Source of the DNA: Gammaproteobacteria bacterium
GTDB lineage: Bacteria > Pseudomonadota > Gammaproteobacteria > Pseudomonadales > Pseudohongiellaceae
Reading direction: 5' to 3'
Assembly (NCBI GenBank): GCA_029246545.1
Contig: JAQWMX010000005.1
Span: forward strand, 186,001-250,000
DNA: 64,000 bases
Shown: positions 11,378-25,160 of the stretch, one piece after another
Position numbering within the stretch: position 1 is the stretch's first letter
Layout of the letters: each line of letters opens with the position of its first letter
Program-made: the position numbers and the translations under genes
Notes under the pieces: generated by a model
The model's database searches: none
Seen by the model: the letters and a program-made list of their open reading frames with translations, nothing else
What the model was told of the DNA's origin: nothing

Positions 11378-11932
11378 CTAAAAAATTAAATTATTCGGAG
11401 TCAAAGTAAGCATTGGATATTCAGGGTGGGGTAAAAACTGTAATAGCGTTATCGAACCAGCAGCATTTACTCTTATTTCATTTGCATAAGGCCCCTGCTC
11501 ACTATCACAATTTTGTAGCCAGACAGTTGTGCTACCTTGAATAGTTGAGTCAAATTCTTCACAAGCATGAACAGCGAATACTTCATCTTCACTAGAGTAT
11601 TCTAGCCCTGCATCTGTTTTTAAAATATTGATATTTAGGTCACCAGGTAAAAGCCCAGTAACATCAATTACTTGGAAGCCGTCAAAAATAACAAGAATGG
11701 TGCCGTCTGAATTTACAAAAGATGTTTGATTCTGTCCTGTAGGTATCACAGGGAGTAGGCTATGATTATCGCCTGACCAAATTAATGTCCAAGCGAGCTC
11801 TTCTAGTGGAACTGTTACTTGTTCATCTTCAAAAATGGACATAAGCAGGTCCAGCTGTGTTGATCGAAAACTACATGCTTGCACTCCTATAATAACTAGA
11901 GCTATTAAAAATAATGCCTTTATCATTCTCAT
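11378..11932 (-). CDS. Putative YjbF/GfcB-like lipoprotein
   Basis: A lipoprotein signal is clear: a hydrophobic stretch at residues 4-18 and a lipobox ending at Cys20 (VQAC). The mature part is about 165 residues and mostly beta-like. Its place at the end of an operon with a YjbH-family protein and a YjbE-like small protein suggests the YjbF/GfcB exopolysaccharide lipoprotein, and the segment around FDGFQVIDVTGLLPG would fit that fold. The sequence match alone is weak. The start overlaps the yjbH-like stop by four bases, so the two are coupled. If not YjbF it is an unassigned outer-membrane lipoprotein. Confidence 0.6.
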   Translation of the reverse strand: MRMIKALFLIALVIIGVQACSFRSTQLDLLMSIFEDEQVTVPLEELAWTLIWSGDNHSLLPVIPTGQNQTSFVNSDGTILVIFDGFQVIDVTGLLPGDLNINILKTDAGLEYSSEDEVFAVHACEEFDSTIQGSTTVWLQNCDSEQGPYANEIRVNAAGSITLLQFLPHPEYPMLTLTPNNLIF

Positions 11933-14001
11933 CCTTGAGGCACCATTCTTCGCAAGTTGTTATTCAATGCATCGTAGCGTGTTGGCCGTAAATCATACCA
12001 AAGAGTACCTCCAAAACCACTAAGCCTCTGGCCTCCGTCACGCTGAACTGAGCGAATAAGATTGGTATAAGAACTGCGAGTATTTCCTGGTAATATTTGA
12101 CCTAAGGGTACTTTAAAAAAGAGGCCTTTATCAAAACTGCCTTCGCCAAAATCTTCAGCTGACACGTTTGTAAATGTAGCAAATGCTCCCATTTGCCAGC
12201 CATTATCAAACGTTCTTCTAACTTCGAAGGTAAGACCTTTATCTTTTGCTAGATACCTTCCAGCATGCACGGCAACATCATAGTTATACCAAGGCGTTGC
12301 CCAATAGGCGCTTATATGACCAGTGAGTACAGAGTAATCTAATAAATCAAAGTCTTTATCATAGTCTCTTTGTTTTACCCAATTCAAATTGAACCCAAAA
12401 GCTAAGCGAGAACTAAACGGGCTGTATAATAACTCCCCACCTACACCAGCATACATTTCTTCAAGAATGCCACTGTATGCACGATAATAAAGATCACGTG
12501 CTAAATTGCCTCTTTTTTGCACAAATAAACTGTCTAAACCTGTATCACCTTCCTTTAAATATCTTGCTATATCAGTCCTGACATGTGGTAACACATCAGA
12601 TTCAGCACCTCGAGATATCGTGTCAAAATCATTATCTATGTCCAAATTATAGCTCGCATATAAACTAAAATTATTGCCCAAATCCGCTGATGCACTCAAA
12701 TTCAACAGAACTTGGTAACGCAGGGGCTTGTCAGGATCAAACAATGAAAAACGAGTTGCTAAGTCAGCCCCAAATGTCACATTTGGAATGCGATAGGCTG
12801 TTGCAAAGGTAGGATCTTCTATTTTCTCTGCAGGAATGATGTCGATTAAATCATCGGCATTAACCCAGTTCCTTTGGCGATCACCAAATTGACGCTGATA
12901 AAGAACTGCATTATTACGGGTACCATAATCATTGAGAATAACTTCTATAGTTTCAACTTGAGGAGGCAGATGAATTTCTGCCAGAGTCAAAAACCGGTTT
13001 ATACTATCCGCCGCTAAATTATACTGTCGGTTTGATAACTCAAAACGCACTAATTTTTCATCTGAGGACCAAAGGGCAGATCTAAGTAACAAACCATTTG
13101 CTTCTACATCAACAAGTAAGCGTCCATACCAAATATTTTGAGGTGTGACATTACTCTCACCAACTGAGTTAGAACTTACAGGAATGACAAGGTTTCTGGA
13201 TTGGCGCGGTAATAAGCTTTTAGTATCTGTAGAAACTGATATATTAAAGGCATACTGATTGCCTTGCTGCCTGCTTACCCCAAGAGTTAAACCATTGGAA
13301 GGCTCCCATTCCACGCCATAACTAATCGCAGAAGCGTCAGGGATAGTGCCAAATCGGCGTTCTCTTTGGTACGAATCTGAATTATACTCAACTAAAAAAC
13401 GTGTATTCCAGTTTTCTAGTTCATAAGAAAAACCACCAAATAAGCCAACATCCGGCCCACTAAAAAAGTTATTGAAAGAAACTTTTCCGCCTAACCCAAT
13501 TTCTTCATCACGAACTGAAAAACCATCTGCAATATTTATTAAAGGGTTACTGAAGGCATCTCGCTCAGCCAATCTCCCCCAACCCATGCCTAAAGTAAAA
13601 TCAAAGGCCCCAATAGATTTGGAAGCGACAAGATATTCACTTCCCCAGGCTCCAGTACCTAATACATCCCTAATGCCAACTGCTATTTGTGGAAATACTC
13701 TCCTCTCTTGGATAAGACGCAACTTAACTTCATAGCTCCTATCGTAAAGACCATCGCTAGACCCTGCAACCTTATCAGGATTGAAAATAGTGTAGCGAAA
13801 AGTAGATTCTAACCAGGGCGTCAATTGGTAATTCAGTGAATATATATCAGCCACAGTTTGCCGGCTCATGGCGACTTTAAATTCTCCATCATCCATCATT
13901 CTAGCACTTGGTATATCAATCAACCCTGTAGTGCCAAGGTCTGCGGCAACCCCAAGAGCCGGGGAGAGCCCAATGGCAAAAGCTAATATAAATCTAATCA
14001 T
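11929..14001 (-). CDS. YjbH-family outer-membrane exopolysaccharide protein
   Basis: The 690-residue product has a signal peptide (residues 1-19, cleavage after VAA) and then the family opening DLGTTGLIDIPSARMMDDGE. The rest is rich in alternating aromatic/polar segments typical of outer-membrane beta-barrels, and the length is typical of YjbH/GfcD proteins. In E. coli YjbEFGH is a capsule/exopolysaccharide system of unknown precise function. No YjbG homologue is visible here. The gene lies downstream of a strong terminator that separates it from the small yjbE-like gene. Confidence 0.85.
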   Translation of the reverse strand: MIRFILAFAIGLSPALGVAADLGTTGLIDIPSARMMDDGEFKVAMSRQTVADIYSLNYQLTPWLESTFRYTIFNPDKVAGSSDGLYDRSYEVKLRLIQERRVFPQIAVGIRDVLGTGAWGSEYLVASKSIGAFDFTLGMGWGRLAERDAFSNPLINIADGFSVRDEEIGLGGKVSFNNFFSGPDVGLFGGFSYELENWNTRFLVEYNSDSYQRERRFGTIPDASAISYGVEWEPSNGLTLGVSRQQGNQYAFNISVSTDTKSLLPRQSRNLVIPVSSNSVGESNVTPQNIWYGRLLVDVEANGLLLRSALWSSDEKLVRFELSNRQYNLAADSINRFLTLAEIHLPPQVETIEVILNDYGTRNNAVLYQRQFGDRQRNWVNADDLIDIIPAEKIEDPTFATAYRIPNVTFGADLATRFSLFDPDKPLRYQVLLNLSASADLGNNFSLYASYNLDIDNDFDTISRGAESDVLPHVRTDIARYLKEGDTGLDSLFVQKRGNLARDLYYRAYSGILEEMYAGVGGELLYSPFSSRLAFGFNLNWVKQRDYDKDFDLLDYSVLTGHISAYWATPWYNYDVAVHAGRYLAKDKGLTFEVRRTFDNGWQMGAFATFTNVSAEDFGEGSFDKGLFFKVPLGQILPGNTRSSYTNLIRSVQRDGGQRLSGFGGTLWYDLRPTRYDALNNNLRRMVPQG

Positions 14002-14051
14002 TTTACTAATATAGAAAAAGTAGTTACAAAGGGTTAAATTATTTGAGGCAT

Positions 14052-14079
14052 AAAAAAAGGCGGCAAAAGCCGCCTTTTT
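14052..14079 (-). terminator. Intrinsic terminator inside the yjb-like operon
   Basis: The perfect stem GGCGGC/GCCGCC (14059-14064 with 14069-14074) has an AAAA loop and is flanked by seven A and five T. On the minus strand the stem is followed by seven T. It lies 31 bases after the yjbE-like stop and 51 bases before the yjbH-like start, so it probably limits transcription of the downstream genes. Confidence 0.9.
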
Positions 14080-14109
14080 AATCTTGCAAGCTATAAACTA
14101 ATTAACACC

Positions 14110-14385
14110 TTAGGTCCCTGTCGACGTAGCAGGTGGGTTTGGACTAGGAACAACTTGACTAGTATTAGTGGAAACTGGTAGAAAAATATCTGGTCTTCCT
14201 GAGTCGTTATCAGAAGATGCAACAGCTCCAACGACAACTACGGCAGCAACAACAGCAACAACAGCCGGGGTAACGCCTGCTATAGCACCAGCGGCGGCGG
14301 CTTGAGCATTTGCATTTAAGGCTGGGAAAATAGCCATAGAAATAGCCATTACTGCGATTATTAATTTTTTACTTAGAATTCTCAC
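14110..14385 (-). CDS. Small secreted Ala/Val-rich protein, YjbE-like
   Basis: A 91-residue exported protein. The start is GTG 14385: AAGGAG lies exactly eight bases before it, whereas the longer open frame to 14412 has no ribosome site. The signal peptide (RILSKKLIIAVMAISMAIFPA) ends at about ANA, residue 27. Next comes a low-complexity Ala/Val stretch, then a Ser/Pro/Thr-rich tail. The size, the composition and its position as first gene before a YjbH protein match YjbE. The terminator behind it suggests it is made in excess over the later gene products. Confidence 0.65.
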   Translation of the reverse strand: MRILSKKLIIAVMAISMAIFPALNANAQAAAAGAIAGVTPAVVAVVAAVVVVGAVASSDNDSGRPDIFLPVSTNTSQVVPSPNPPATSTGT

Positions 14386-14393
14386 GATTATTA

Positions 14394-14399
14394 CTCCTT
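14394..14399 (-). promoter_or_regulatory. Ribosome binding site that fixes the GTG start at 14385
   Basis: AAGGAG on the minus strand, eight bases from GTG. It decides the start of the YjbE-like gene in favour of a 91-residue product whose first residues form a normal signal peptide. Confidence 0.8.
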
Positions 14400-14669
14400 C
14401 ACTTATGATCAAAATTGTTCGATTAGATATTCAACCGCCGAGAAGAATCTCAGCTTCTCCTAGAAAGGTAATGTTGTCAAGTTTAGCTATGAATGTCTAG
14501 TCTAAATGTTAAAAATACCTACTTTCCCCATGTTTTTTTGCAAAATCCCCTTTTATATCTAAAAAAACCCATCTAAATTACAGATGAATTGCGATTTACT
14601 GCCTAGATCCCATTAAATGCTATGAATGCTTAATTTGCATTAAAAACTGAGTCTACGTATGTTTATCGA

Positions 14670-15830
14670 ATGAATAACCCGTCTCAAATACCTTCATCTC
14701 TAAAGCTAGAAACAAATATAATTAATTATTTAGGCCTACTCTTACTTATTGTTTTTACAGTATTTTTATCAAATATATGGCGCTTCCAAGAAGTTTTGCA
14801 CTGGCTAGGACAATCTATTCTTTTATGGTCACTTGTGATGTGCAGAACGTCAAAAATACTGGATCAAAATCGTTATTCGGTGCATGAAGCAATATATCCG
14901 AATTTAGGCTGGGCAAATCGGCTCACGCTACTTAGGGGCTTTTTTATAGCAGTTACAGGCGGATTTATCTTTCACCCCAATCTAGATGAAAAAATCCTTT
15001 TAATTCCTGCACTTAGCTATTTTATTGCAGCCATAATTGATCGAATTGATGGCTATATTGCCCGTCTTACAAAGCATGAAAGCCTATTAGGCACTGAGCT
15101 AGACATCGAATCTGATGCTTTGGGGTTATTGATTGCACCACTGTTGGCCGTTTGGATCGGCCAAATTCATTGGTCTTACCTATCTGTAAGCCTTGCTTAT
15201 TATCTATTTCAATGGGGTCTATATTGGAGGTCAGCTCGCAATAAGCCTGTCTATCAACTGCCTAGTAACATGTCTCGTAGAGCTGTTGCAGGATTTCAGA
15301 TGGGGTTTCTTTCAGTTGTGCTTTGGCCTATTTTGGCACCACCAGCTACTATGATTGCAGGATTGGCATTCATGCTTCCCTTGCTTGTAGGGTTTGTTAT
15401 GGACTGGTTTACAGTAAGTGGAAAAATTAAGTTAGATGATCTTCATACTCGAAACTTTCTTAATCAACTAAATAAAGCAACTCACCTTGTAATTTTGCCC
15501 ATGCTGAGAATTCTAATCACATTGTTGCTTTGCTTAAGTTTAATAAGAATAAATTCATTTCCATTAATGAACAATGGACTTTCTCTTATCAATATACCCT
15601 TACTATTAAGCTTATTGTCTTCCGCATTAATGATATCACTTGGAATAAATGGCCGGTTCTTTGCCATTATTCTTTCATGCCTTTTGTGCTGGCATTTTCT
15701 TTCTTACGAAATGCAGTTTCTTGATGGGATTCTACTTGTTTCAGTAATTTGGGTTATGCAGTTTGGTACTGGTAAATTTAGTTTATCGATCAGAGATGAT
15801 AACTGGGTAAACCGATACGATGGCGCCTGA
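14670..15830 (+). CDS. CDP-alcohol phosphatidyltransferase family membrane protein
   Basis: Integral membrane enzyme that would transfer a phosphatidyl (or other phospho) group from a CDP-alcohol donor to an alcohol acceptor. The complete catalytic motif DX2DGX2ARX8GX3DX3D is present at about residues 126-150 (DRIDGYIAR...GTELDIESD). At 386 residues it is longer than PgsA, with extra membrane helices at both ends. It is translationally coupled (TGATG) to the next gene, a flippase-like protein. The substrate is unknown. The pairing and the neighbouring glycosyltransferase operon suggest a special lipid rather than bulk phosphatidylglycerol. Confidence 0.82.
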   Translation: MNNPSQIPSSLKLETNIINYLGLLLLIVFTVFLSNIWRFQEVLHWLGQSILLWSLVMCRTSKILDQNRYSVHEAIYPNLGWANRLTLLRGFFIAVTGGFIFHPNLDEKILLIPALSYFIAAIIDRIDGYIARLTKHESLLGTELDIESDALGLLIAPLLAVWIGQIHWSYLSVSLAYYLFQWGLYWRSARNKPVYQLPSNMSRRAVAGFQMGFLSVVLWPILAPPATMIAGLAFMLPLLVGFVMDWFTVSGKIKLDDLHTRNFLNQLNKATHLVILPMLRILITLLLCLSLIRINSFPLMNNGLSLINIPLLLSLLSSALMISLGINGRFFAIILSCLLCWHFLSYEMQFLDGILLVSVIWVMQFGTGKFSLSIRDDNWVNRYDGA

Positions 15831-16816
15831 TGCTTAGCTACAAATTTATTAGAGCCTTCACTTGGCTAATTGCATTAGCTTTAGCTGCTTGGATCATTCG
15901 TGATTTACCATTCGAAATTATCATTGAAACTATTTTTAGTTTAACCGTCGCACAATGGTTTTATTGGACGTTGATTAACCTAATCATAATTTTAATCCTC
16001 GTATGGCGCTGGCTAGTCTTAACAAAAGGATTCAAACTAAAGCTCAATCTAATTAATTTGCTACTACTACGTCAAGCTGGCCAAAGCATAAGTTTTATTA
16101 CGCCAGGTCCTCAATTTGGTGGCGAACCACTGCAAATATTTTTACTGTGGAAAAAATATTTTATCTCTCCTGGCGATTCAGTTTTGGCAGTTGCTGCAGA
16201 TAGGGCGTTTGAACTTTGGACTAATTTTGCAGTGCTTTTAATTGGAATAATAATTTTATTTTTTACTCAAACAGAACTTGCTAACTGGGTTTCAATAGCC
16301 ACTCTAGTATCTTCTTTAATACTTATTCTTAGCCTAAGTATTTGGTTTCTGATAAATCAAAGTGAAAAAATAGAAACAAATATAAATAAACTTGTTCAAA
16401 AATGGCTGGTCAGCAAACGATTATCTGAAATTAATTTCCACTCTAATAATTTCACTGCTTCCTTAAAGACATTATTAACCAATAAGGTTGCCCTTATATT
16501 TGCATTGCTTTTATCAATAAGCGGTTGGTTTCTTACATTCTTCGAGCTTTATCTAGTATTAAACTTCTTTAGTATTAACCTTGATTTAAGCCAATTCGTA
16601 TTATTAATGGTGGCAATGCGATTAGCTTTTTTATTACCGCTTCCCGGCGGAATTGGAACACTAGAAGCATCTGTAATTTGGAGCTTTTCTGCACTAGCAT
16701 TGCCAGTCAGTTCAGCTGCGGCTCTACTAGCTTTACTCAGGTTTCGAGATATTTTAGTACTTGTAGCAGGTTTTATATGCCTTAGATTACTTCAATCCAA
16801 AACAGTCGCGGTTTGA
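15830..16816 (+). CDS. Lysylphosphatidylglycerol synthase TM-region / flippase-like protein
   Basis: Polytopic membrane protein of 328 residues with about eight hydrophobic segments. The family motifs are QAGQSISFITPGPQFGGEP near residue 83 and LPLPGGIGTLEAS near residue 268. This is the transmembrane half of the MprF family (AglD/YbhN group) without the aminoacyltransferase domain; such proteins are thought to move or modify lipids. It overlaps the upstream CDP-alcohol transferase by one base. Its last 30 bases overlap the convergent methyltransferase gene. Confidence 0.8.
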   Translation: MLSYKFIRAFTWLIALALAAWIIRDLPFEIIIETIFSLTVAQWFYWTLINLIIILILVWRWLVLTKGFKLKLNLINLLLLRQAGQSISFITPGPQFGGEPLQIFLLWKKYFISPGDSVLAVAADRAFELWTNFAVLLIGIIILFFTQTELANWVSIATLVSSLILILSLSIWFLINQSEKIETNINKLVQKWLVSKRLSEINFHSNNFTASLKTLLTNKVALIFALLLSISGWFLTFFELYLVLNFFSINLDLSQFVLLMVAMRLAFLLPLPGGIGTLEASVIWSFSALALPVSSAAALLALLRFRDILVLVAGFICLRLLQSKTVAV

Positions 16817-17665
16817 AATGCTTATGGCGAGAATCTCTTGATCAAGCTCTTTATAGCGACTTGATAACCAGGTTTCTAAACCTGGGAATCCAGCCAATGC
16901 TTTCTTAATAGTATCTAGTATATTTTTAATAAATAAACTATCTCCTTCACCCAATTCCCAGTTAGACTCCCCATCAACAACTTGCTCACAGCCATATTTT
17001 TTTAACCAAATTGGAAGAGCTATGCCCGTCAAGCTAGGTTGCCAATCTAAATTAGGAAACCTGCTATCCATATCTAGGTGATAGAGCTCTGAAATTTTAT
17101 GATCACTATCATGTGCCGGATAAAATTCGGTATTTCCTGAGAAGTTTAAGCTGAAATAGCATGCACCCCGAGCTTTTAATTTATCTAAAATTATTGACAT
17201 AATTGTTGGCACTGGCAGTAAGTCAATTACTGCATGACTTAATAATAAGTCAAAGCTTTTATCGCCAAAAAGCTGGTCGATTTTATTAGCATCAGCTTCT
17301 ATCCATTCAATAAATATATCTAACTCATTATTACTGATGTGCCAAAGCCCTTCTGAATTTATTTTAAAAGTACATCCATATTTATTTGCCCATCCTTTAA
17401 ATCGAGACAATGCAGCTTCTTTAAACATAGTTTCAGGCTCAAGAACAATATAATGGCACTTTTGAAGTAATGAAGCTTCGAGTAAGCGCTCAATCATTGT
17501 GCCTATACCAGCACCAATTTCTAACACTCTGAGAGTTGAGTCTTGCTTATTTCTAGACAATAACCAATTGGAGAAATGTCCCCAAACAACTTCATTCAGA
17601 CTTCTGTCATCGATACTTTTTTTCACATCCAAGTATTTAACATAATCAAATGTTTCATTGACCAA
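16787..17665 (-). CDS. Class I SAM-dependent methyltransferase
   Basis: A 292-residue Rossmann-fold methyltransferase. Motif I is VLEIGAGIGTMIERL near residue 46, the acidic end of strand beta-2 is VLEPE near residue 75, and DLLLSHAVIDLLP near residue 140 is the motif IV region. The last gene of the six-gene operon that begins with the GTP cyclohydrolase II gene, it overlaps the glycosyltransferase by 11 bases. The acceptor is unknown. It is not a Cfr, UbiE or MetW type by its motifs. The context suggests methylation of the pathway product or of its sugar. Confidence 0.8.
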   Translation of the reverse strand: MVNETFDYVKYLDVKKSIDDRSLNEVVWGHFSNWLLSRNKQDSTLRVLEIGAGIGTMIERLLEASLLQKCHYIVLEPETMFKEAALSRFKGWANKYGCTFKINSEGLWHISNNELDIFIEWIEADANKIDQLFGDKSFDLLLSHAVIDLLPVPTIMSIILDKLKARGACYFSLNFSGNTEFYPAHDSDHKISELYHLDMDSRFPNLDWQPSLTGIALPIWLKKYGCEQVVDGESNWELGEGDSLFIKNILDTIKKALAGFPGLETWLSSRYKELDQEILAISISNRDCFGLK

Positions 17666-18737
17666 ATGTAGTCTCCTTCTTTTGAATTAAGGACATTAAA
17701 AAAGTTCTAATTTTTTTACTACTTTCATCCCAAGTCGGGTGCTGAGAATATTTTTTTTGAACTAATTCTGACATCTTCTTGAGTAATTCTCGGTCATTGT
17801 CTAAAAGAGTAATAAATTCAGCAAGCCCTTGCTCGTCCTTTGAATCAACAAGATAGCCATTAACGCCATCTTCAATAATTTCTTGAGCACCGCCTAAGTT
17901 GCAGCCGATTACAGGCAGACCAAATTGCATAGCTTCTAAAAAGACAATTCCGTATGCCTCATTTATTGAAGGTAAAACAAATACGTCATTATCTAGGTAT
18001 TGTTTCTTTAGACTCTCATCCGTTAATGAGCCATAAAATTTAATTCGATTTTCAATTCCATTAATAGCTATATATTTTTTTATATTGTTCATATAACGTA
18101 GATCAATGTCCTCACGGCCTACAACAGAAAGCGTAATACTTTCATCAAGCATATGAATGGCTTTTATAAGAACATGCAAACCTTTTTGTTGAGTAATATT
18201 TCCAACAAATAAAATCTTAAGATTTTGTCCAATATAGTTTCTGTTAATTTTTTCGACTGCAGTGAAGTTATCGCCACATGGAAAAGCGATAATATTCGGC
18301 AGGAGCTTATTATCTAGTAGTTTATTAGATTGATTAAGAGTTTCTTTACTATTAAGTATCAAGGCATCAACTGAGTTTAAGTAAAAATTTTCAATAAGTT
18401 TATAGACCATTTTTTTGTAGGGACCAACAGGCCTAGCACTATTAAATAAATGCACAAGAGAAACGATAGGACACTTTAGTAATTTTTTTAATTGTTTATT
18501 AATAAGCCAAAATGATGGATGGACTAGTTCATCTTGAATTAAAACATCTAATTTAATGCTCTTGAGTACGTCAGGGATAGAATATGTTAATAAGGCTTTA
18601 AAGTACGAAGGTTTTTTTAGACTAATAACAGTGACTTCATCACCATTCTTGCGTAAATATTCAACTAATTTTCGATCATAGAGATAACCACCACTGATAG
18701 TATTTATATCACCATAAATCAATAGTCCAATTCGCAT
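17655..18737 (-). CDS. Family 4 glycosyltransferase
   Basis: GT-B fold glycosyltransferase of 360 residues. The N-terminal acceptor domain carries the GG loop INTISGGYLYD. The C-terminal donor domain has LKILFVGNITQQKG near residue 176 and the EX7E retaining-enzyme motif ending NEAYGIVFLEAM, followed by GLPVIGCNLGGAQEII. It probably uses a nucleotide-sugar donor. It sits between the PTPS-like gene and the methyltransferase, so it may glycosylate the small molecule made by the preceding enzymes. Confidence 0.85.
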   Translation of the reverse strand: MRIGLLIYGDINTISGGYLYDRKLVEYLRKNGDEVTVISLKKPSYFKALLTYSIPDVLKSIKLDVLIQDELVHPSFWLINKQLKKLLKCPIVSLVHLFNSARPVGPYKKMVYKLIENFYLNSVDALILNSKETLNQSNKLLDNKLLPNIIAFPCGDNFTAVEKINRNYIGQNLKILFVGNITQQKGLHVLIKAIHMLDESITLSVVGREDIDLRYMNNIKKYIAINGIENRIKFYGSLTDESLKKQYLDNDVFVLPSINEAYGIVFLEAMQFGLPVIGCNLGGAQEIIEDGVNGYLVDSKDEQGLAEFITLLDNDRELLKKMSELVQKKYSQHPTWDESSKKIRTFLMSLIQKKETTFGQ

Positions 18738-18746
18738 AGCTTTGAC

Positions 18747-19133
18747 TTAGCTATCCCCATAATCTTTCTTATATGCTGCCCAGCAGGTTTTATTTTCCCA
18801 TAATTTTACCTCTAACACCCCATCACCAGGAAGAGTGATTTGGCTAATCATCATTTCCCAAATAATTCGACTGAAGTGTTCAATGCTAGGATTTATCCCA
18901 TTAAATTCTGACAATTCATTCAAAGTTTTATCTTTAAAATAACTAACAACCTGCTCAAGCGCAGCATCAATATCAATAATATCGACTAAATATCCGTGTT
19001 GATCCAAACTGTCATGCTCTATTACTAATTCCAGCATAAAGTAATGCGAATGAAGATAGTTTTCTTCTCCCCAATCTCCACCAATTAAAAAGTGTTGGGC
19101 AATAAATTCTTTTTGTACGGCAATGCTATACAT
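18747..19133 (-). CDS. 6-pyruvoyl-tetrahydropterin synthase-like (QueD family variant)
   Basis: A 128-residue T-fold protein. Zinc-ligand histidines are visible as His14 in AQHFL and the pair in LHSHYF (residues 29 and 31). The usual HGH is HSH, and no Cys stands before it: the loop reads GGDWGEENY, so the proton-abstracting Cys of classical PTPS/QueD is missing and Glu lies in that region. This marks a divergent subfamily, so calling it preQ0 or biopterin synthase would be unsafe. It is separated by three bases from the dehydrogenase upstream. Its substrate is probably a dihydroneopterin-type phosphate, but that is inference. Confidence 0.75.
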   Translation of the reverse strand: MYSIAVQKEFIAQHFLIGGDWGEENYLHSHYFMLELVIEHDSLDQHGYLVDIIDIDAALEQVVSYFKDKTLNELSEFNGINPSIEHFSRIIWEMMISQITLPGDGVLEVKLWENKTCWAAYKKDYGDS

Positions 19134-19136
19134 GGC

Positions 19137-20141
19137 TTAATCCTCATAAGTGAATATAACTTGCAATGCTTTTCCCGCTTCTTTATCAAGCAAGCAATAG
19201 GCCTTAGTAGCATCTGATAAAGGAAAACGGTGAGTAATAAATTTTTCAACTTCCATTTCTTCTAATGAACTTAAAGCTTTGTTCAATCTCTTCTCTTTCG
19301 TCCATTTAGCAGAGTGTTCTGGGCTAATGGTGCTTACTTGACTAGAAATAATTTTTAATCTATTCCGATGAAAAGCGCCACCCAAATTTATAGGCACCGT
19401 CTTATTACCATACCAACTACCAATAATTATGCGTCCAGAAAATCCGCTTAATTCTATAGCTAGATTCAAAGCTTCTGGATTTCCGCTTAATTCAAATATC
19501 AAATCAAAGCCATCACACTTTCCTAGAAGTTCTTTCGAATCAGGCAAGAAACCTGAAGTACTTTTCTCTCTTTCAGCGAATTCTCTACGAAACTTTAATC
19601 CATCGACTGCAGAAACCTTATTTAATGACTGTTGATTTAACAATACATTAACCAATTGCCCTACCACCCCCAAACCAAGTATGGCAACATTTTCATGTTT
19701 CTGGGCTTCCCCATCGATTAAAAAATTTACTGCTGTTTCCATGTTAGCTAAAAAAGTGCCCGCTTCTTCAGACATTTCATCTGGCAAAAAAATAAACTGA
19801 TCGATTTTACAAATAAAGTGTGAGGCATGCGGTTGGAGTGCAAATACTTTTTTACCTTTAATACTCTTATCTACGGAGCTTCCTGTTTCTTCAACAACAC
19901 CAACACAGGCATAACCATAGGGTAGAGGATACGAACCGTCCAATCCTTCAAATGCTTTAATAGAAGCATCTAATGGTAAGTCTTGAGGTACTTGTCCGCG
20001 ATAAACCAACATTTCAGTGCCAGCACTGATACCAGAAACCTTAGTTTTAACTAGCACATCATCTTGAGCTAAAGAGCCAAGTTCATGTTCACGAATTTCA
20101 ACTTTCCCTGGTTCAATGAACCATAACTGTTTGGCCTTCAT
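19137..20141 (-). CDS. Zinc-type medium-chain alcohol dehydrogenase-like protein
   Basis: MDR-superfamily oxidoreductase of 334 residues. The N-terminal GroES-like domain has GISAGTEMLVYRG. The NAD(P)-binding site is AILGLGVVGQLV near residue 150. The Cys/His catalytic-zinc signature GHE is replaced by YGYACVGVVEE, so a normal catalytic zinc site is doubtful; the family is close to threonine-dehydrogenase-like and bacteriochlorophyllide-type MDR members. It overlaps the RibD-like gene by four bases. It is the likely redox enzyme of the pathway. Confidence 0.8.
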   Translation of the reverse strand: MKAKQLWFIEPGKVEIREHELGSLAQDDVLVKTKVSGISAGTEMLVYRGQVPQDLPLDASIKAFEGLDGSYPLPYGYACVGVVEETGSSVDKSIKGKKVFALQPHASHFICKIDQFIFLPDEMSEEAGTFLANMETAVNFLIDGEAQKHENVAILGLGVVGQLVNVLLNQQSLNKVSAVDGLKFRREFAEREKSTSGFLPDSKELLGKCDGFDLIFELSGNPEALNLAIELSGFSGRIIIGSWYGNKTVPINLGGAFHRNRLKIISSQVSTISPEHSAKWTKEKRLNKALSSLEEMEVEKFITHRFPLSDATKAYCLLDKEAGKALQVIFTYED

Positions 20142-20860
20142 TTATCCGGCTCGCTGTATTTCAAATCGCCCCAAACTATCAAGTCTTCATCAAGCTTCTC
20201 ATAATAAATAGGCGATATATTAGGCGAAGAAGATATATCTTCTACTTCTAAGTCTCCTACCGCTTTATAACCGCCTATTAATTTGGGCGCTACAGTCATA
20301 ACTATCGCATCTGCTAAACCTAACTTTAGAAATTCCGTAATTACTTTCGCGCCACCTTCAACCATTAAACTTTCTATACCTCTCTCACGTAATACTCTCA
20401 TTGCTGGTAAAAGTGGAATAAAATCACTGCTTTGTTGAGAAACCTGAATTATTTCGAGGTCTGTTTTTTTTGACTGCTGCGAAAGTTTATCGTTTGCAAC
20501 GGTTAGCACCCAACATTTTTTATCTGGATGCTGGTGTAATTTTGAATCAAGAGGCATACGTAATCGACTATCTAGAACTATCGGCTGTGGATTATTACCT
20601 ACCCATTCACGGACAGTTAATTGCGGGTCGTCGGACAGGACAGTCTCAATTCCAACTAGAATGCCTTCATGCAGACTTCTAAGTTGATGGGTTAATTGGT
20701 TGGATGCAAAGCAACTTAAAGCAGCCGCCTCACCTTTACTCGTTGTAATACTTCCATCCCAGGACTGAGCGAAAGCGAGCGTAATAAAAGGTCTATTAAT
20801 AAACTGAAAAGTTTTTTTTCGAGAGCTTAACCAGCTTTCAATCTGTTGGTTGAGGCTCAT
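20138..20860 (-). CDS. RibD C-terminal (pyrimidine reductase) domain protein
   Basis: A stand-alone reductase domain of about 240 residues with the RibD-C/DHFR-like fold: RPFITLAFAQSWDGSI near residue 23, GIETVLSDDPQLTVR and the cofactor-loop SLMVEGGAKVITEF. The N-terminal deaminase domain of bifunctional RibD is absent. The expected reaction is NADPH reduction of the ribosyl side chain of the GTP cyclohydrolase II product to ribityl. I chose ATG 20860 (MSLNQQ); ATG 20884 is an alternative. Either way it overlaps the upstream cyclohydrolase gene (by 23 or 47 bases), implying coupled translation. Probably not the general riboflavin enzyme. Confidence 0.82.
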   Translation of the reverse strand: MSLNQQIESWLSSRKKTFQFINRPFITLAFAQSWDGSITTSKGEAAALSCFASNQLTHQLRSLHEGILVGIETVLSDDPQLTVREWVGNNPQPIVLDSRLRMPLDSKLHQHPDKKCWVLTVANDKLSQQSKKTDLEIIQVSQQSSDFIPLLPAMRVLRERGIESLMVEGGAKVITEFLKLGLADAIVMTVAPKLIGGYKAVGDLEVEDISSSPNISPIYYEKLDEDLIVWGDLKYSEPDK

Positions 20861-21494
20861 TTTGATCTTTTGCTTGATGAGCATCTTGATTGTCGTTAAT
20901 CGACAAAATATGATTCATACGCTTTGCTTTAGTCATCAGGTATTGCGCATTCTCGGGGTGCACAGTTGCTTCCACATCTACTCTTTCATTAACCACTATA
21001 CCTTCAGTTTCAAGCGCTTCAATTTTTGTAGGATTATTCGTTAATAAGCGAATAGATTTAACCTTTAAATCTTTAAGAATTAATGCTGCCAACGAATATT
21101 CCCTCTCGTCAGCCAGATGGCCCAGCAAAATATTGGCATCTACCGTATCGTGACCTTTATCTTGCAAGTTGTAAGCTTCAATTTTTTTCGAAAGACCTAT
21201 ACCTCTTCCTTCTTGACGCATGTAGACGATAACCCCACAACCCTGTTTGGCAATTTTTTGCATGGCGAAATCTAATTGCTCACCGCAATCGCAACGTAAT
21301 GACCCCAACACATCCCCAGTAAAACATTCAGAATGCACTCGCGTTAATACGTTTTCAGTATTTTCTATATCACCTAAAAACAAAGCTAAATGATCTTTAT
21401 CATCTTCAGTATTAGTGTACGCACACAACTGAAAGTCCCCATATTTTGTAGGGATACGTGCACTTGTGGTGCGAGTTACTTGTTTATCACTCAT
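20838..21494 (-). CDS. ribA: GTP cyclohydrolase II
   Basis: Opens the imidazole ring of GTP, releasing formate and pyrophosphate and leaving a 2,5-diamino-6-ribosylamino-pyrimidinone phosphate. The zinc motif CX10CXC is present (CFTGDVLGSLRCDC, about residues 58-71), followed by MRQEGRGIGL and the arginine/Tyr region RLLTNNPTKIEAL. The 218 residues are a monofunctional RibA length. It heads the operon that continues with the RibD-like reductase. It could serve riboflavin synthesis, but its neighbours suggest a dedicated paralogue, so the symbol refers to the enzyme family. Confidence 0.88.
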   Translation of the reverse strand: MSDKQVTRTTSARIPTKYGDFQLCAYTNTEDDKDHLALFLGDIENTENVLTRVHSECFTGDVLGSLRCDCGEQLDFAMQKIAKQGCGVIVYMRQEGRGIGLSKKIEAYNLQDKGHDTVDANILLGHLADEREYSLAALILKDLKVKSIRLLTNNPTKIEALETEGIVVNERVDVEATVHPENAQYLMTKAKRMNHILSINDNQDAHQAKDQNEPQPTD

Positions 21495-21557
21495 GGTGGG
21501 TAATGTTACTTTTTTATACGAAGCCGGTAAAGCTAAGGTTTCAGTCAGAACAAGCTA

Positions 21558-22364
21558 TTAAAGCGCTTGCCAATCAAAATTGATATCACCAATTGCAAAA
21601 AAATATGGATTTAATATATTTTCTTTTTGGTTATATCGATATGTTTTAAATTTACTATCTTTCAATATTCCGCCAGCAGCCTCCAAAATAGCTTGTGCTG
21701 CAGCAGTATCCCACTCAGAAGTAAGCGCTAATCGAGGATATATGTCTGCTTTACCTTCAGCTACCAAACAAATTTTTAAAGAGCTACCCATACTCAATAA
21801 TTCAACTTTTTTAAAAGATTTTTCAATTTTTTTGAGCCAAGCATCTAATTCTTCACCACGGTGACTTCTACTAGCAACAATTTTCACTTCTTTGGATATA
21901 GATGTTGTAGCAACTCTTATCTCAGTCTCTACACCAGCATCTTCTTTCCAAGCTCCTTGGCCAAGTACACCTGAATATAAGATATCTTTAACTGGCACGA
22001 AAACAGCTCCCAGCACGGGCACATGGTTATCAATTAATGCAATATTGACAGTAAACTCGCCGTTACGTTTTATAAACTCTTTAGTGCCATCTAGTGGATC
22101 AACTAACCAATATCGAGTCCAAGCTTCACGCTCACCCCAACTGATATCTGCAGACTCTTCAGAAAGAATTGGTATTTCAGGAGTAAGCTCATTCAGCGCA
22201 TAAACTATTATCTGGTGAGCTGCTATGTCTGCTTCAGTCAATGGCGAGTCATCTTTTTTATTCGCCACCTCAATATCACCGTCCCTTTGGTAAACTTCCA
22301 AGATAGCTGCACCAGCTTCTTTGCTGATATTTTTCACTGAATCTATTAAATCAATTGGTAACAT
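21558..22364 (-). CDS. cysQ: 3'(2'),5'-bisphosphate nucleotidase CysQ
   Basis: Mg-dependent phosphatase that removes 3'-phosphoadenosine 5'-phosphate left by sulfate assimilation. It has the inositol-monophosphatase-fold motifs: DSPLTEADIAAH near residue 38, the metal site WLVDPLDGTKEFI near residue 90, and TSEWDTAAAQAILEAAGG near residue 214. It lies 63 bases upstream of the pterin-like operon on the same strand, but is functionally a better fit with the divergent yrfG, as cysQ-nudE-yrfG order is common. Confidence 0.93.
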   Translation of the reverse strand: MLPIDLIDSVKNISKEAGAAILEVYQRDGDIEVANKKDDSPLTEADIAAHQIIVYALNELTPEIPILSEESADISWGEREAWTRYWLVDPLDGTKEFIKRNGEFTVNIALIDNHVPVLGAVFVPVKDILYSGVLGQGAWKEDAGVETEIRVATTSISKEVKIVASRSHRGEELDAWLKKIEKSFKKVELLSMGSSLKICLVAEGKADIYPRLALTSEWDTAAAQAILEAAGGILKDSKFKTYRYNQKENILNPYFFAIGDINFDWQAL

Positions 22365-22443
22365 ATTAACTGTTATATCATCCCTATATAATTAAGAACA
22401 AAAATAGATTATAGACAACTCTTGGTAATTAAGCCTGACTAAT

Positions 22444-23097
22444 ATGATCAACTGGTCTCAAATCGACACCGTCCTTTTAGATATGGATGGCACCCTATTA
22501 GACTTATCTTTTGATAATTTCTTTTGGCGAGAACATCTACCGAAAGTATATTCCCAGCAAACGAATATACCTTTAGATAAAGCTATAGAGATACTTGAAA
22601 AATTTTCAAATTCTCTTATGGGCACGCTTAATTGGTATTGTGTTGATCATTGGTCTGAGTCACTACAAATTGATGTAGAAGCTGCTAAACATGATGTAAA
22701 AGAACATATACGATTTCGCCCTCACACACTTAAATTTTTAAATTTTCTCAATCAAAAAAGTAAATCAAGTATCTTGGTAACAAATGCTCACCCCAAATCT
22801 ATGGAGTTAAAGGTAGCCACCATGGAGCTTCACCAACACCTTGATAAAATAATTAGCTCTCACGAATTCTCATTGGCGAAAGAAAATGAAGGTTTTTGGC
22901 ACCTTTTCCAAAAAAGAGAAGGATTAGATTTATCCCGTTGTCTATTTATTGACGACAGTAAATCAGTGCTTGATCGTGCCAAAGCAGAAGGGCTTGGGCA
23001 TATTCTTCAAATTCTAAAGCCTGACTCCACACAAGAGCCTCTACCTCAAGGAGAGTTTTTAGCTGTTCATGACTTTGATGAGCTGATGTCTACATGA
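22444..23097 (+). CDS. yrfG: GMP/IMP nucleotidase (HAD family)
   Basis: HAD-superfamily phosphatase of 217 residues. Motif I is VLLDMDGTLLDL near residue 10, motif II is SILVTNAH, and motif IV is LFIDDSKSVLDRA near residue 165. The long cap includes NWYCVDHWSE, characteristic of YrfG. The stop overlaps the hslR start by four bases, reproducing the yrfG-hslR pair of E. coli. Confidence 0.9.
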   Translation: MINWSQIDTVLLDMDGTLLDLSFDNFFWREHLPKVYSQQTNIPLDKAIEILEKFSNSLMGTLNWYCVDHWSESLQIDVEAAKHDVKEHIRFRPHTLKFLNFLNQKSKSSILVTNAHPKSMELKVATMELHQHLDKIISSHEFSLAKENEGFWHLFQKREGLDLSRCLFIDDSKSVLDRAKAEGLGHILQILKPDSTQEPLPQGEFLAVHDFDELMST

Positions 23098-23522
23098 ACA
23101 AAAAAAACAATGACAAAACTCCTTCTACAACTGGATTAACTAAAGTCCGCATAGATAAATGGCTGTGGGCCGCCCGCTTTTTTAAGACTCGAAATCTTGC
23201 TAAGCAAGCCATTGATGGCGGTAAAGTACATTGTAATGGGGCTCGCTGTAAAAGTAGTCGCGAAATTGAAATTGGAGCTAATTTGGAAATTCGCCAGGGT
23301 TGGGATGAAAAAACAGTTATTGTCTCAAGACTCTCTGATAAACGTGGGGGTGCACCTCAAGCAGCACAACTTTATCAAGAAACTTCTGAAAGCTTGGGAA
23401 AACGACAATTGCAACTAGATCAACGAAAAGCCATGCAAAACTCGAACCCACACCCAAGCGGACGGCCTAACAAACAAGATCGGCGATTAATTCACCGCTT
23501 TAAACAAAATCAAGTTGAATAA
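23094..23522 (+). CDS. hslR: Ribosome-associated heat shock protein Hsp15
   Basis: S4-type RNA-binding protein that rescues free 50S subunits carrying nascent chains. The S4 domain is evident as VRIDKWLWAARFFKTRNLA followed by DGGKVHCNGARCK, and the tail is basic. The 142 residues fit the family. hslO, next in E. coli, is not here; gshA follows instead. Confidence 0.92.
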   Translation: MNKKNNDKTPSTTGLTKVRIDKWLWAARFFKTRNLAKQAIDGGKVHCNGARCKSSREIEIGANLEIRQGWDEKTVIVSRLSDKRGGAPQAAQLYQETSESLGKRQLQLDQRKAMQNSNPHPSGRPNKQDRRLIHRFKQNQVE

Positions 23523-23594
23523 CTCAAATCATGCCCCCATCTTTGATCATGTGGCATAATGCCGAACTTTTAAAAACGTGTTGGAAGCAAAAAG

Positions 23595-25160
23595 TTGAGT
23601 GAGCAATTAAAAAACCTGCTTGGTACTTTAGGAGAATTGCCTGATATTGGATGTCTTAAAAGCATCACTCACGGCATTGAAAAGGAAAGTTTACGAGTAG
23701 ACAAACATGGCAGAATAGCCATGACCCAACATCCATCAGGGCTTGGCTCTCCTTTGACCCATGAATTTATTACAACTGACTTCTCGGAAGCATTAATTGA
23801 GTTTATAACACCAGTTTTTACAGACCCTACCAGTAGCCTTAAATACCTAGAAGATATCCATCGCTTCCTATATAGCCAATTAGAGGACGGGGAATTACTG
23901 TGGACCTCCAGTATGCCGTGCATCATTGAGCAAGATGATCAAATTCCACTTGCACAATATGGCTCATCAAATATTGGCAAACTAAAGACACTATACCGAT
24001 CTGGCTTAGGTCATCGTTATACTCGTGCTATGCAGACTATTGCAGGCATTCATTATAATTTTTCTCTACCAGACGATTTTTGGCAACTTTTACATAGCTC
24101 ACATGAATCTAAGCAAGAACTGCAGGAATTTAAAACTGAGCAATATTTTAATTTAATCCGAAACTTTCGCCGCTATTCCTGGCTACTTATTTATCTTTTT
24201 GGCGCATCGCCAGCAATATGTAAAAGTTTTATTAAAGATAAAACTGACCATGGCTTAGAGCCTTTTGATGATTACACTTACCACATGCCTTATGGCACCT
24301 CTTTACGTATGGGGGACTTAGGCTATACCAGTGATGCACAGACAGATTTATTTGTCAGTTATAACTCATTGGACGAATACATTACAGGTATGCGTGAATC
24401 CATTCAAACCCCTTATACACCCTATACTGTCTTTGATAAGCTAGGTACTGATCATCAACAAATTAACAGCAATATTTTACAAATCGAAAATGAGTTTTAT
24501 AGCACCATTCGACCAAAACGTGTTAGCAAAAATAGTGAACGACCAATACATAGTTTGAAAAATGGTGGAGTCGAGTATATAGAAGTACGCTGTTTGGATT
24601 TAAATCCATTTCTACCTATCGGCATTGATGAAACACAAATAAATTTCTTAAATGCGTTTTTATTATTTTGCTTGCTTAGAAAAAGTCCTCCTTCTTCAAA
24701 AGAGGAATATAAAGAAATTCAGCATAATTTCAGCTCAGTTGTTTCTGAAGGCAGAAAGCCTGGACTCAAATTAGCTCAGAATGGCGAAGCTATTTCTTTA
24801 TCAGTTTGGGCAGAAGAAATATTACAAGAAAGCTTAGAAGTTGCTAATTTACTTGATAGCACCTGTACAATTTCAAGTTACCAGGACGCTGTTAAAAAGC
24901 AACTAGCAAAAGTCGATAATAGCGACCTCACACCTTCAGCTCAAGTATTAGCTACTATGCGTGAAAATCAAATGCCCTATTTTCCATTTGCTTTAAAACA
25001 ATCACAAGAAAGCGCCGAATATCTTCAAAATAAACTGAACAATGAAACTTTAGATCAATTTAAAAAAATTACTGAACAATCTAATCGTGATCGAGAACAT
25101 ATCGAACAATCTGATAAATTAAGCTTTGATGAATTTCTTAGCCAAGCAAATGTTGGTTAG
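23595..25160 (+). CDS. gshA: Glutamate-cysteine ligase
   Basis: First step of glutathione synthesis: ATP-dependent joining of glutamate and cysteine. The 521 residues match the gammaproteobacterial GshA type (518 in E. coli), with SITHGIEKESLRV at the N-terminus, HEFITTDFSEALIEFITP, the MPYGTSLRMGDLGY block and VEYIEVRCLDLNP. The start codon is TTG (ttg agt gag caa), 10 bases after a GGAAG sequence. gshB lies 21 kb away in this window. Confidence 0.95.
   Translation: MSEQLKNLLGTLGELPDIGCLKSITHGIEKESLRVDKHGRIAMTQHPSGLGSPLTHEFITTDFSEALIEFITPVFTDPTSSLKYLEDIHRFLYSQLEDGELLWTSSMPCIIEQDDQIPLAQYGSSNIGKLKTLYRSGLGHRYTRAMQTIAGIHYNFSLPDDFWQLLHSSHESKQELQEFKTEQYFNLIRNFRRYSWLLIYLFGASPAICKSFIKDKTDHGLEPFDDYTYHMPYGTSLRMGDLGYTSDAQTDLFVSYNSLDEYITGMRESIQTPYTPYTVFDKLGTDHQQINSNILQIENEFYSTIRPKRVSKNSERPIHSLKNGGVEYIEVRCLDLNPFLPIGIDETQINFLNAFLLFCLLRKSPPSSKEEYKEIQHNFSSVVSEGRKPGLKLAQNGEAISLSVWAEEILQESLEVANLLDSTCTISSYQDAVKKQLAKVDNSDLTPSAQVLATMRENQMPYFPFALKQSQESAEYLQNKLNNETLDQFKKITEQSNRDREHIEQSDKLSFDEFLSQANVG

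Follow-up and report, generated by a model that had tools for sequence, protein, structure and literature searches.

What product do a GTP cyclohydrolase II, a RibD reductase domain lacking its deaminase, a dehydrogenase, a PTPS-fold protein, a glycosyltransferase, and a methyltransferase make together? The question is raised by a 64,000-nucleotide stretch of contig JAQWMX010000005.1 (positions 186,001 to 250,000 of the forward strand; GenBank assembly GCA_029246545.1) from a gammaproteobacterium of the family Pseudohongiellaceae, the whole of which is here called the window. Our analysis indicates that these genes and two convergent neighbors very probably form a real dedicated system, a widely conserved pathway that is, as far as we have found, uncharacterized; we tentatively read it as leading from GTP, via GTP cyclohydrolase II, to a glycosylated, often methylated, and perhaps lipid-linked pterin-like product. 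The genes, with their short names and the evidence for each assignment, are as follows.

20838 to 21494, minus strand: RibA, GTP cyclohydrolase II (HSEC and CDC zinc-ligand motif, Pfam, NCBIfam)
20138 to 20884, minus strand: RibD_C, reductase without deaminase domain (Pfam; distinct from the full RibD on contig C12)
19137 to 20141, minus strand: DH, MDR dehydrogenase, BchC-like, usual zinc motifs absent (Pfam, NCBIfam)
18747 to 19133, minus strand: PTPS-like, PTPS-fold protein with an ExxxHSH motif (Pfam, pattern, model)
17655 to 18737, minus strand: GT, glycosyltransferase of family GT4 (Pfam, N-terminal motif)
16787 to 17665, minus strand: MT, S-adenosylmethionine-dependent methyltransferase of its own family (weak Pfam match, alignment)
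15830 to 16816, plus strand, convergent with the six genes above: LPG_TM, LPG_synthase_TM flippase-like membrane protein (Pfam, NCBIfam, co-occurrence)
14670 to 15830, plus strand, convergent with the six genes above: CDP-OH, CDP-alcohol phosphatidyltransferase (Pfam, motif, fold, co-occurrence)

The six minus-strand open reading frames (ORFs; 16787-21494) were confirmed where the first-pass annotation had placed them and with the domains it had named, and their spacing is as tight as it had said: DH and PTPS-like are 3 bases apart and PTPS-like and GT 9, and the remaining junctions overlap (RibA/RibD_C by 47 bases on first-ATG calls, RibD_C/DH by 4, and GT/MT by 11). That annotation read the core genes correctly, and its idea of a separate set for a GTP-derived glycosylated product, with the pathway inferred, stands in that the set is distinct and conserved; its gene list was incomplete, missing CDP-OH and LPG_TM (14670-16816), and it overstated the independence of ribA.

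Neighborhoods of the PTPS-Like Gene

A scan of one genome per species returned 436 relatives of the PTPS-like gene, and the best 80 of the 436, together with loci L035-L037, L097, and L098, gave 85 loci for study. Neighbors were called from mechanical ORFs and BLAST, and a gene missing near a contig end does not count as truly absent; two of the loci (L146 and L148), with the same layout and identities, are contigs of one metagenome-assembled genome (MAG) counted twice. Beside the PTPS-like gene (85 of 85) were found DH (83), GT (75), RibD_C (71, or 74 by BLAST), LPG_TM (58), CDP-OH (58), RibA (55, or 56 by BLAST), methyltransferases (45 and 13), and a membrane protein family, F9 (35); several further neighbor clusters in this list look like antisense frames. 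At the 54 loci where the PTPS-like gene is flanked by 6 kb or more in each direction, the families keep company beyond what chance would give, with DH at 54, GT at 53, RibD_C at 50, MT at 43, and RibA at 41; for CDP-OH, LPG_TM, and F9 the counts are 44, 40, and 29.

Gene order varies: GT and MT may be found downstream or upstream, and when upstream they run either divergently or in the same direction; CDP-OH and LPG_TM most often have the window's arrangement, downstream and convergent. At L151 these two head a same-strand run in which all seven genes except RibA lie on one strand, with LPG_TM and RibD_C overlapping by 4 bases. Because the set is retained through this reshuffling, we take it to be a functional unit. 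Three other gammaproteobacterial genomes have the same neighbors as the window, RibA and RibD_C forming one protein in two of them; in all, the fusion was seen at four loci (L035, L036, L154, and L166). The best 80 relatives are mostly from Gammaproteobacteria, with some labeled Chloroflexi, Verrucomicrobia/Opitutales, Calditrichia, and Deltaproteobacteria (MAG title labels, among them Geobacteraceae, Rhodoferax, and Klebsiella, may be binning errors); named isolates with the cluster include Methylomonas sp. LW13, Cellvibrio mixtus, and Saccharospirillum impatiens.

Co-occurrence was scored in 59 genomes of the window's family, with the PTPS-like gene present in 40 and absent in 19. A CDP-OH orthologue was found in 39 of the 40 and 2 of the 19 (Fisher p 1e-11), LPG_TM in 36 and 1 (p 2e-10), and cluster-type RibD_C (E <1e-60) in 38 and 1 (p 5e-12), the p values treating related genomes as independent; the two PTPS-negative genomes with CDP-OH (G707 and G711) are 73 and 77% complete. 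Genomes with and without the gene stand side by side in genera g421, g422, g423, and g427, which calls for several gains or losses. Farther out, matches to the PTPS-like gene at E ≤1e-3 were found in 128 of 274 genomes at the class level, only 4 of them (including the window's own) at 43% identity or more, and at E ≤1e-12 in 71 of 398 genomes at the phylum level, with a best non-self score of 69 bits against 226 for self; we would call none of the phylum-level matches an orthologue, and the gene appears sparse outside certain families.

The PTPS-like match also occurs in 13 plasmid records, of which six stretches (five haloarchaeal and one from Streptomyces) were read. Plasmids of Halomicrococcus, Natronorubrum, Haloarcula, and Haladaptatus carry DH, PTPS-like, and GT4 genes together with a gene at the place of MT, annotated as hypothetical in Haloarcula; CDP-OH lies near this core in Natronorubrum and Haloarcula, and RibD_C and RibA were not seen in the haloarchaeal stretches read. 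The Streptomyces fungicidicus plasmid (L209) carries CDP-OH, DH, PTPS-like, GT4, MT, a creatininase, and GTP cyclohydrolase II. Identity to the window's CDP-OH is 35% over 180 aligned positions in Haloarcula and 28% over 169 positions in Streptomyces, and the Streptomyces DH is 37% identical to the window's over 279 residues. The plasmid PTPS-like proteins are annotated as a queuosine enzyme.

Around the cluster in the window, no RNA element matched Rfam at gathering scores within 13000-24000, and counts of promoter-like sites (15, against 28.6 in shuffles) and terminator-like sites (8, against 5.7) were uninformative. Predicted exported proteins of 690 and 184 residues (11378-14001) keep their place beside the cluster in L099-L101 and L118, which are close relatives.

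RibA, Riboflavin, and Queuosine

The window's RibA has the zinc cysteines (HSEC and CDC) and the family-level scores of a GTP cyclohydrolase II (Pfam GTP_cyclohydro2, E 1.9e-68; NCBIfam ribA, above cutoff). Of 55 cluster RibA ORFs, 53 have the zinc motif; one of the two exceptions is a contig-end fragment, and the other was called in a poor frame. The window's genome (2.25 Mb, 97.43% complete) has a riboflavin operon, ribD-ribE-ribB-ribH-nusB, on a separate contig (C12), and Pfam finds no RibD deaminase, RibB, RibE, or RibH among the set's own genes. As had been claimed, then, the set does not make riboflavin, and we reject it as a riboflavin duplicate, though RibA is probably shared.

That sharing qualifies the first-pass expectation of a complete rib operon elsewhere: the operon is there, and its cyclohydrolase II domain is degenerate. 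This domain, the only other one in the genome (E 5.2e-37), lies inside the operon's RibB protein (C12, L214:6026-7144), which is presumably of the kind named RibBX, and by eye its alignment has none of the three zinc cysteines of the window's RibA. Since those cysteines are missing, the window's RibA is probably the one working GTP cyclohydrolase II of the genome, and so would also serve riboflavin synthesis; a ribA next to an unrelated pathway would probably be essential here. The first-pass annotation had held that its proposal would fail if the genome had no other ribA and RibD reductase: for a working ribA this is probably the case, whereas the reductase is a genuine duplicate, the full RibD being on C12.

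The picture differs among lineages. PF00925 was scored in 24 genomes (20 with a cluster-type PTPS gene and four family members without), of which G659 and G724 are one genome by coordinates. At least two matches above 190 bits were found in 14 entries, or 13 distinct genomes; nine genomes have a single such match, which by position is in the cluster in G658, G664, G726, and G727 and away from it in G705, the remaining four having no cluster; G010 has no match above 190 bits. The cluster RibA is thus an extra copy in some lineages and the sole copy in others. These counts bear on the idea that the genes are chance neighbors, with RibA a riboflavin enzyme and the rest unrelated. That the cluster holds the window genome's only copy with an intact zinc motif would fit such an account; the second copies in 13 genomes speak against it, and for the set as a whole it is already contradicted by conservation across layouts, by the RibA-RibD_C fusions, and by co-occurrence, and we regard it as scarcely credible.

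Queuosine is likewise rejected as the function, in agreement with the earlier claim: queC and queE are elsewhere in the genome, on contig C18. They are adjacent there (L213:6528-7878), and the surrounding ORFs that were listed include no queD; a pairwise search of the genome returned the window's gene alone, by a method insensitive enough to leave 146 of 274 genomes without a match. The PTPS-like protein (Pfam PTPS, E 7.2e-25) is itself unlike QueD (PTPS-I), scoring 43.6 bits against a QueD cutoff of 89.25 and having no CxxxHGH. Its ExxxHSH fits none of the three motifs in PMC5041015, namely CxxxHGH (PTPS-I), CxxxxxHGH (PTPS-II, biopterin), and ExxHGH (PTPS-III, folate), its Glu standing four rather than three places before the first His of HSH; the family could be PTPS-V, which is also named there, with function unclear (PMC5041015). 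By pattern, Glu occupies the place of the QueD catalytic Cys at 84 of 85 loci and H(S/A)H is found at 83 of 85; one locus is unmatched and one reads N for the first His. A second Glu, E113, is invariant across nine aligned members and stands in register with the Glu that anchors the ring in PTPS. The nearest solved relative by profile is 3d7j (E 1.5e-13), deposited as "Uncharacterized protein SCO6650," and for the predicted model (pLDDT, the predicted local distance difference test score, 92.8) 3d7j also ranks first by fold, with Z 17.4 against 15.1 for QueD.

The candidate ring-binding Glu bears on another possible product, a glycosylated aminopyrimidine rather than a pterin, comparable to vicine of faba bean. 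In PMC12202586 the vicine pathway begins with RIBA, and RibA, a reductase, and a glycosyltransferase would suffice for such a compound. The PTPS-fold protein is, however, the most constant member of the set and keeps this Glu, and we consider an aminopyrimidine product improbable.

A Proposed Route from GTP

RibD_C is a reductase domain alone, without deaminase (Pfam, E 7.7e-40), with solved relatives that include 2azn and 4ha7, the latter named 2,5-diamino-6-ribosylamino-4(3H)-pyrimidinone 5'-phosphate reductase. All 63 pattern-matched cluster enzymes (of 74 members) read DGS or DGC, 62 of them DGS, at a place where aligned RibD and archaeal reductases read DGK or DGR. In a tree, the Rib7 fragment (4ha7) falls beside 11 of 12 cluster enzymes with support 83/87, on a very long branch and an open fork from which nothing firm is drawn; the L037 enzyme falls on the opposite side from the other cluster enzymes. 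DH has the Pfam domains ADH_N and ADH_zinc_N (E 5.6e-6, bits under the curated cutoff), and its best NCBIfam model is bchC (E 6.2e-25, far under cutoff). The usual catalytic zinc ligands of MDR alcohol dehydrogenases are CGxC and GHE; the window's DH has SGIS and GYA at these places and so lacks the signature of the zinc-dependent enzymes. Among 84 relatives sorted by pattern, S(A/G)(I/V)SxGTE and YGY(A/S) are the rule; the first is missing from 11 rows, the second from 2, and both from 5. GT is a glycosyltransferase (Pfam Glycos_transf_1, E 4.2e-36) with an N-terminal motif, GG(Y/F/N)xYDR, seen by eye and matched strictly in 60 of 75 sequences. MT matches Pfam weakly (Methyltransf_28, E 1.1e-6); 13 members over several phyla align with a common C-terminal part, and no informative solved relative of MT was found.

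From gene content, conservation, co-occurrence, fusion, motifs, and folds, all of which are observed, we infer the chemical steps and the lipid link that follow. The route would start with GTP cyclohydrolase II, which likely feeds the system, and not with the cyclohydrolase I of folate and biopterin synthesis, because RibA and RibD_C come as a pair, are sometimes fused, and are absent from the haloarchaeal stretches read, haloarchaea having the reduced 2-amino intermediate already as part of their riboflavin synthesis. RibA would convert GTP to 2,5-diamino-6-(5-phosphoribosylamino)-4-oxopyrimidine, and RibD_C would reduce the ribosyl to a ribityl chain, giving a 2-amino ribityl-pyrimidine, as expected of a reductase that comes without a deaminase. 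DH would oxidize a side-chain hydroxyl, for which we favor the 2'-OH because condensation of the resulting ketone with the 5-amino group could form the ring of a dihydropterin. Next, the PTPS-fold enzyme might process the ring or side chain, GT would add a sugar, and MT, where present, would add a methyl group; methylation would not be universal, since MT was not found in the stretch at 11 of the 54 loci, several of them from Methylomonas and relatives. Finally, CDP-OH would probably join the product, either as such or phosphorylated, to a phosphatidyl lipid, with LPG_TM perhaps carrying it across the membrane. We doubt that the exact order of chemistry is as given; the weakest steps are ring closure and what CDP-OH joins.

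The two convergent genes are of lipid type, which changes what the product may be. CDP-OH (Pfam CDP-OH_P_transf, E 7.1e-15) has the complete catalytic motif DxxDGxxARx8GxxxDxxxD, as do 57 of 58 relatives, and its model (mean pLDDT 85) is closest in fold to PgsA (Z 12.2) and phosphatidylinositol-phosphate synthase (Z 10.0), so that motif and fold both identify a CDP-alcohol phosphatidyltransferase. With plain Foldseek the model gave no match at E ≤0.001, the best being PgsA at 3.4e-3. The acceptor of PgsA is a phosphorylated alcohol, and PgsA as the nearest fold is suggestive, though only that, of the type of acceptor used by CDP-OH. LPG_TM matches Pfam LPG_synthase_TM at E 6.4e-26. In a congener (L100; G671:C1:370417-371304) the LPG_TM match has 11 in-frame stops, MT and GT are in pieces, and CDP-OH is open; this could be either decay or sequencing errors. 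F9, the membrane protein that neighbors the cluster at 35 of 85 loci (for example, L127:2263-3873 and L130:2796-4436) and has some 540 residues, matches lipoteichoic acid primase 4uop weakly (E 0.034); it has no match in the window's genome, and one member tried had no Pfam match. It could move a phospho-headgroup to another acceptor.

We give a lipid-linked product close to an even chance. An appreciable but less probable alternative is a soluble pterin or lumazine glycoside, like those of cyanobacteria and Chlorobium, with CDP-OH and LPG_TM serving another, co-regulated or co-inherited lipid. Pterin glycosides and their glycosyltransferases do exist, according to PMC5683033 and PMC13259868, and CDP-OH was not found at 10 of the 54 loci, nor LPG_TM at 14, nor either in some haloarchaeal stretches. 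On the other side, both genes co-occur with the PTPS-like gene in the window's family, and CDP-OH lies near the core in Natronorubrum, Haloarcula, and Streptomyces as well.

Several observations weigh against the pterin-like, lipid-linked product proposed here. Besides the absences of MT, CDP-OH, and LPG_TM just given, RibA was not found at 13 of the 54 loci; the Halobellus stretch has DH, PTPS-like, and MT and no GT; and CDP-OH was not seen in three of the five haloarchaeal stretches (Halomicrococcus, Haladaptatus, and Halobellus). What DH catalyzes is uncertain, because the usual zinc motifs are missing from it; the PTPS-like protein no longer has the QueD Cys, and in its Streptomyces counterpart the HxH motif is partly gone as well; and PgsA, at Z 12.2, stands out only modestly from unrelated helical chains, which reach 9.7. 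All 10 carriers tested have FolE, which in the window's genome lies elsewhere; ring closure is doubtful for this reason, since dihydropterin is obtainable without the cyclohydrolase II route. FolE bears equally on whether the set is a second dihydropterin route for folate or another cofactor, in place of cyclohydrolase I: the proposed DH step would indeed lead to dihydroneopterin phosphate, but replacement of FolE is unlikely where FolE is retained, and folate requires no GT, MT, or CDP-OH enzyme, which leaves this a very unlikely account.

If the proposed route from GTP is right, riboflavin and queuosine labels would have concealed a common environmental pathway, one whose product is a GTP-derived chromophore that bears a sugar and is possibly bound to lipid. 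It might even, though we think this less likely than not, produce membrane lipids of a new class, in bacteria and haloarchaea alike, with a glycosylated, sometimes methylated pterin or ribityl-pyrimidine head group made via cyclohydrolase II by an undescribed pathway, and with light-absorbing and redox-active properties.

Relation to Known Systems

Open-licence PubMed Central papers yielded no published pathway matching the set and no gene-for-gene match to a characterized one, which leaves the first-pass view of the set in place as regards those papers, and is a statement about them rather than about print as a whole. The Streptomyces SCO6650 region (its neighborhood known here through S. fungicidicus L209) also has DH, PTPS-like, GT4, MT, CDP-OH, and GTP cyclohydrolase II close together, and 3d7j, SCO6650 itself, is the solved structure closest to the window's PTPS-like protein in both sequence and fold. 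Unlike the window, the L209 annotation shows no RibD_C and includes a creatininase; the Streptomyces GTP cyclohydrolase II has Met for Tyr before LQ, and from the ExxxHSH of the Streptomyces PTPS-like protein the Glu and one His are missing. SCO6655 and SCO6650 of S. coelicolor have reportedly been studied with no pathway assigned; SCO6650 is said to have no PTPS active site and to keep the pterin pocket, and SCO6655 is said to be a GTP cyclohydrolase II that stops at the formylated product, with which Met for Tyr agrees. This branch has thus probably been noticed before as a cluster without assigned function. Creatininase-family genes lie near the Streptomyces (L209:15645-16436) and Haloarcula (L211:1213-1971) clusters; a role as the formyl-removing ArfB is not supported (37 and 21 bits against a model cutoff of 180), and the best model for both, also under cutoff, is MftE of mycofactocin synthesis.

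Among enzyme families, CDP-OH shares its fold and complete catalytic motif with PgsA and the phosphatidylinositol-phosphate synthases, but forms its own orthologous group with extra helices, the NCBIfam equivalogs falling far under cutoff; the PTPS-like protein shares the T-fold with the QueD/COG0720 subfamilies and differs in its ExxxHSH motif. Pathways to pterin glycosides (biopterin glucoside and cyanopterin) have in common with the set a GTP start, a PTPS-fold enzyme, and a glycosyltransferase; they begin with cyclohydrolase I, whereas the set has cyclohydrolase II, RibD_C, and lipid-type genes. Most biological pterins begin with cyclohydrolase I, as PMC13259868 has it.

A stand-alone RibD_C-type reductase is also found in the archaeal and fungal branch of riboflavin synthesis, where reduction precedes deamination. 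Archaea and fungi make the reduced 2-amino intermediate on the way to riboflavin, and bacteria normally do not, since their RibD deaminates first. In contrast to that branch, the cluster RibD_C is found in a bacterium with a normal RibD and in association with DH, PTPS-like, and GT genes; the proposed route, if correct, would explain why a bacterial RibD reductase lacks a deaminase of its own.

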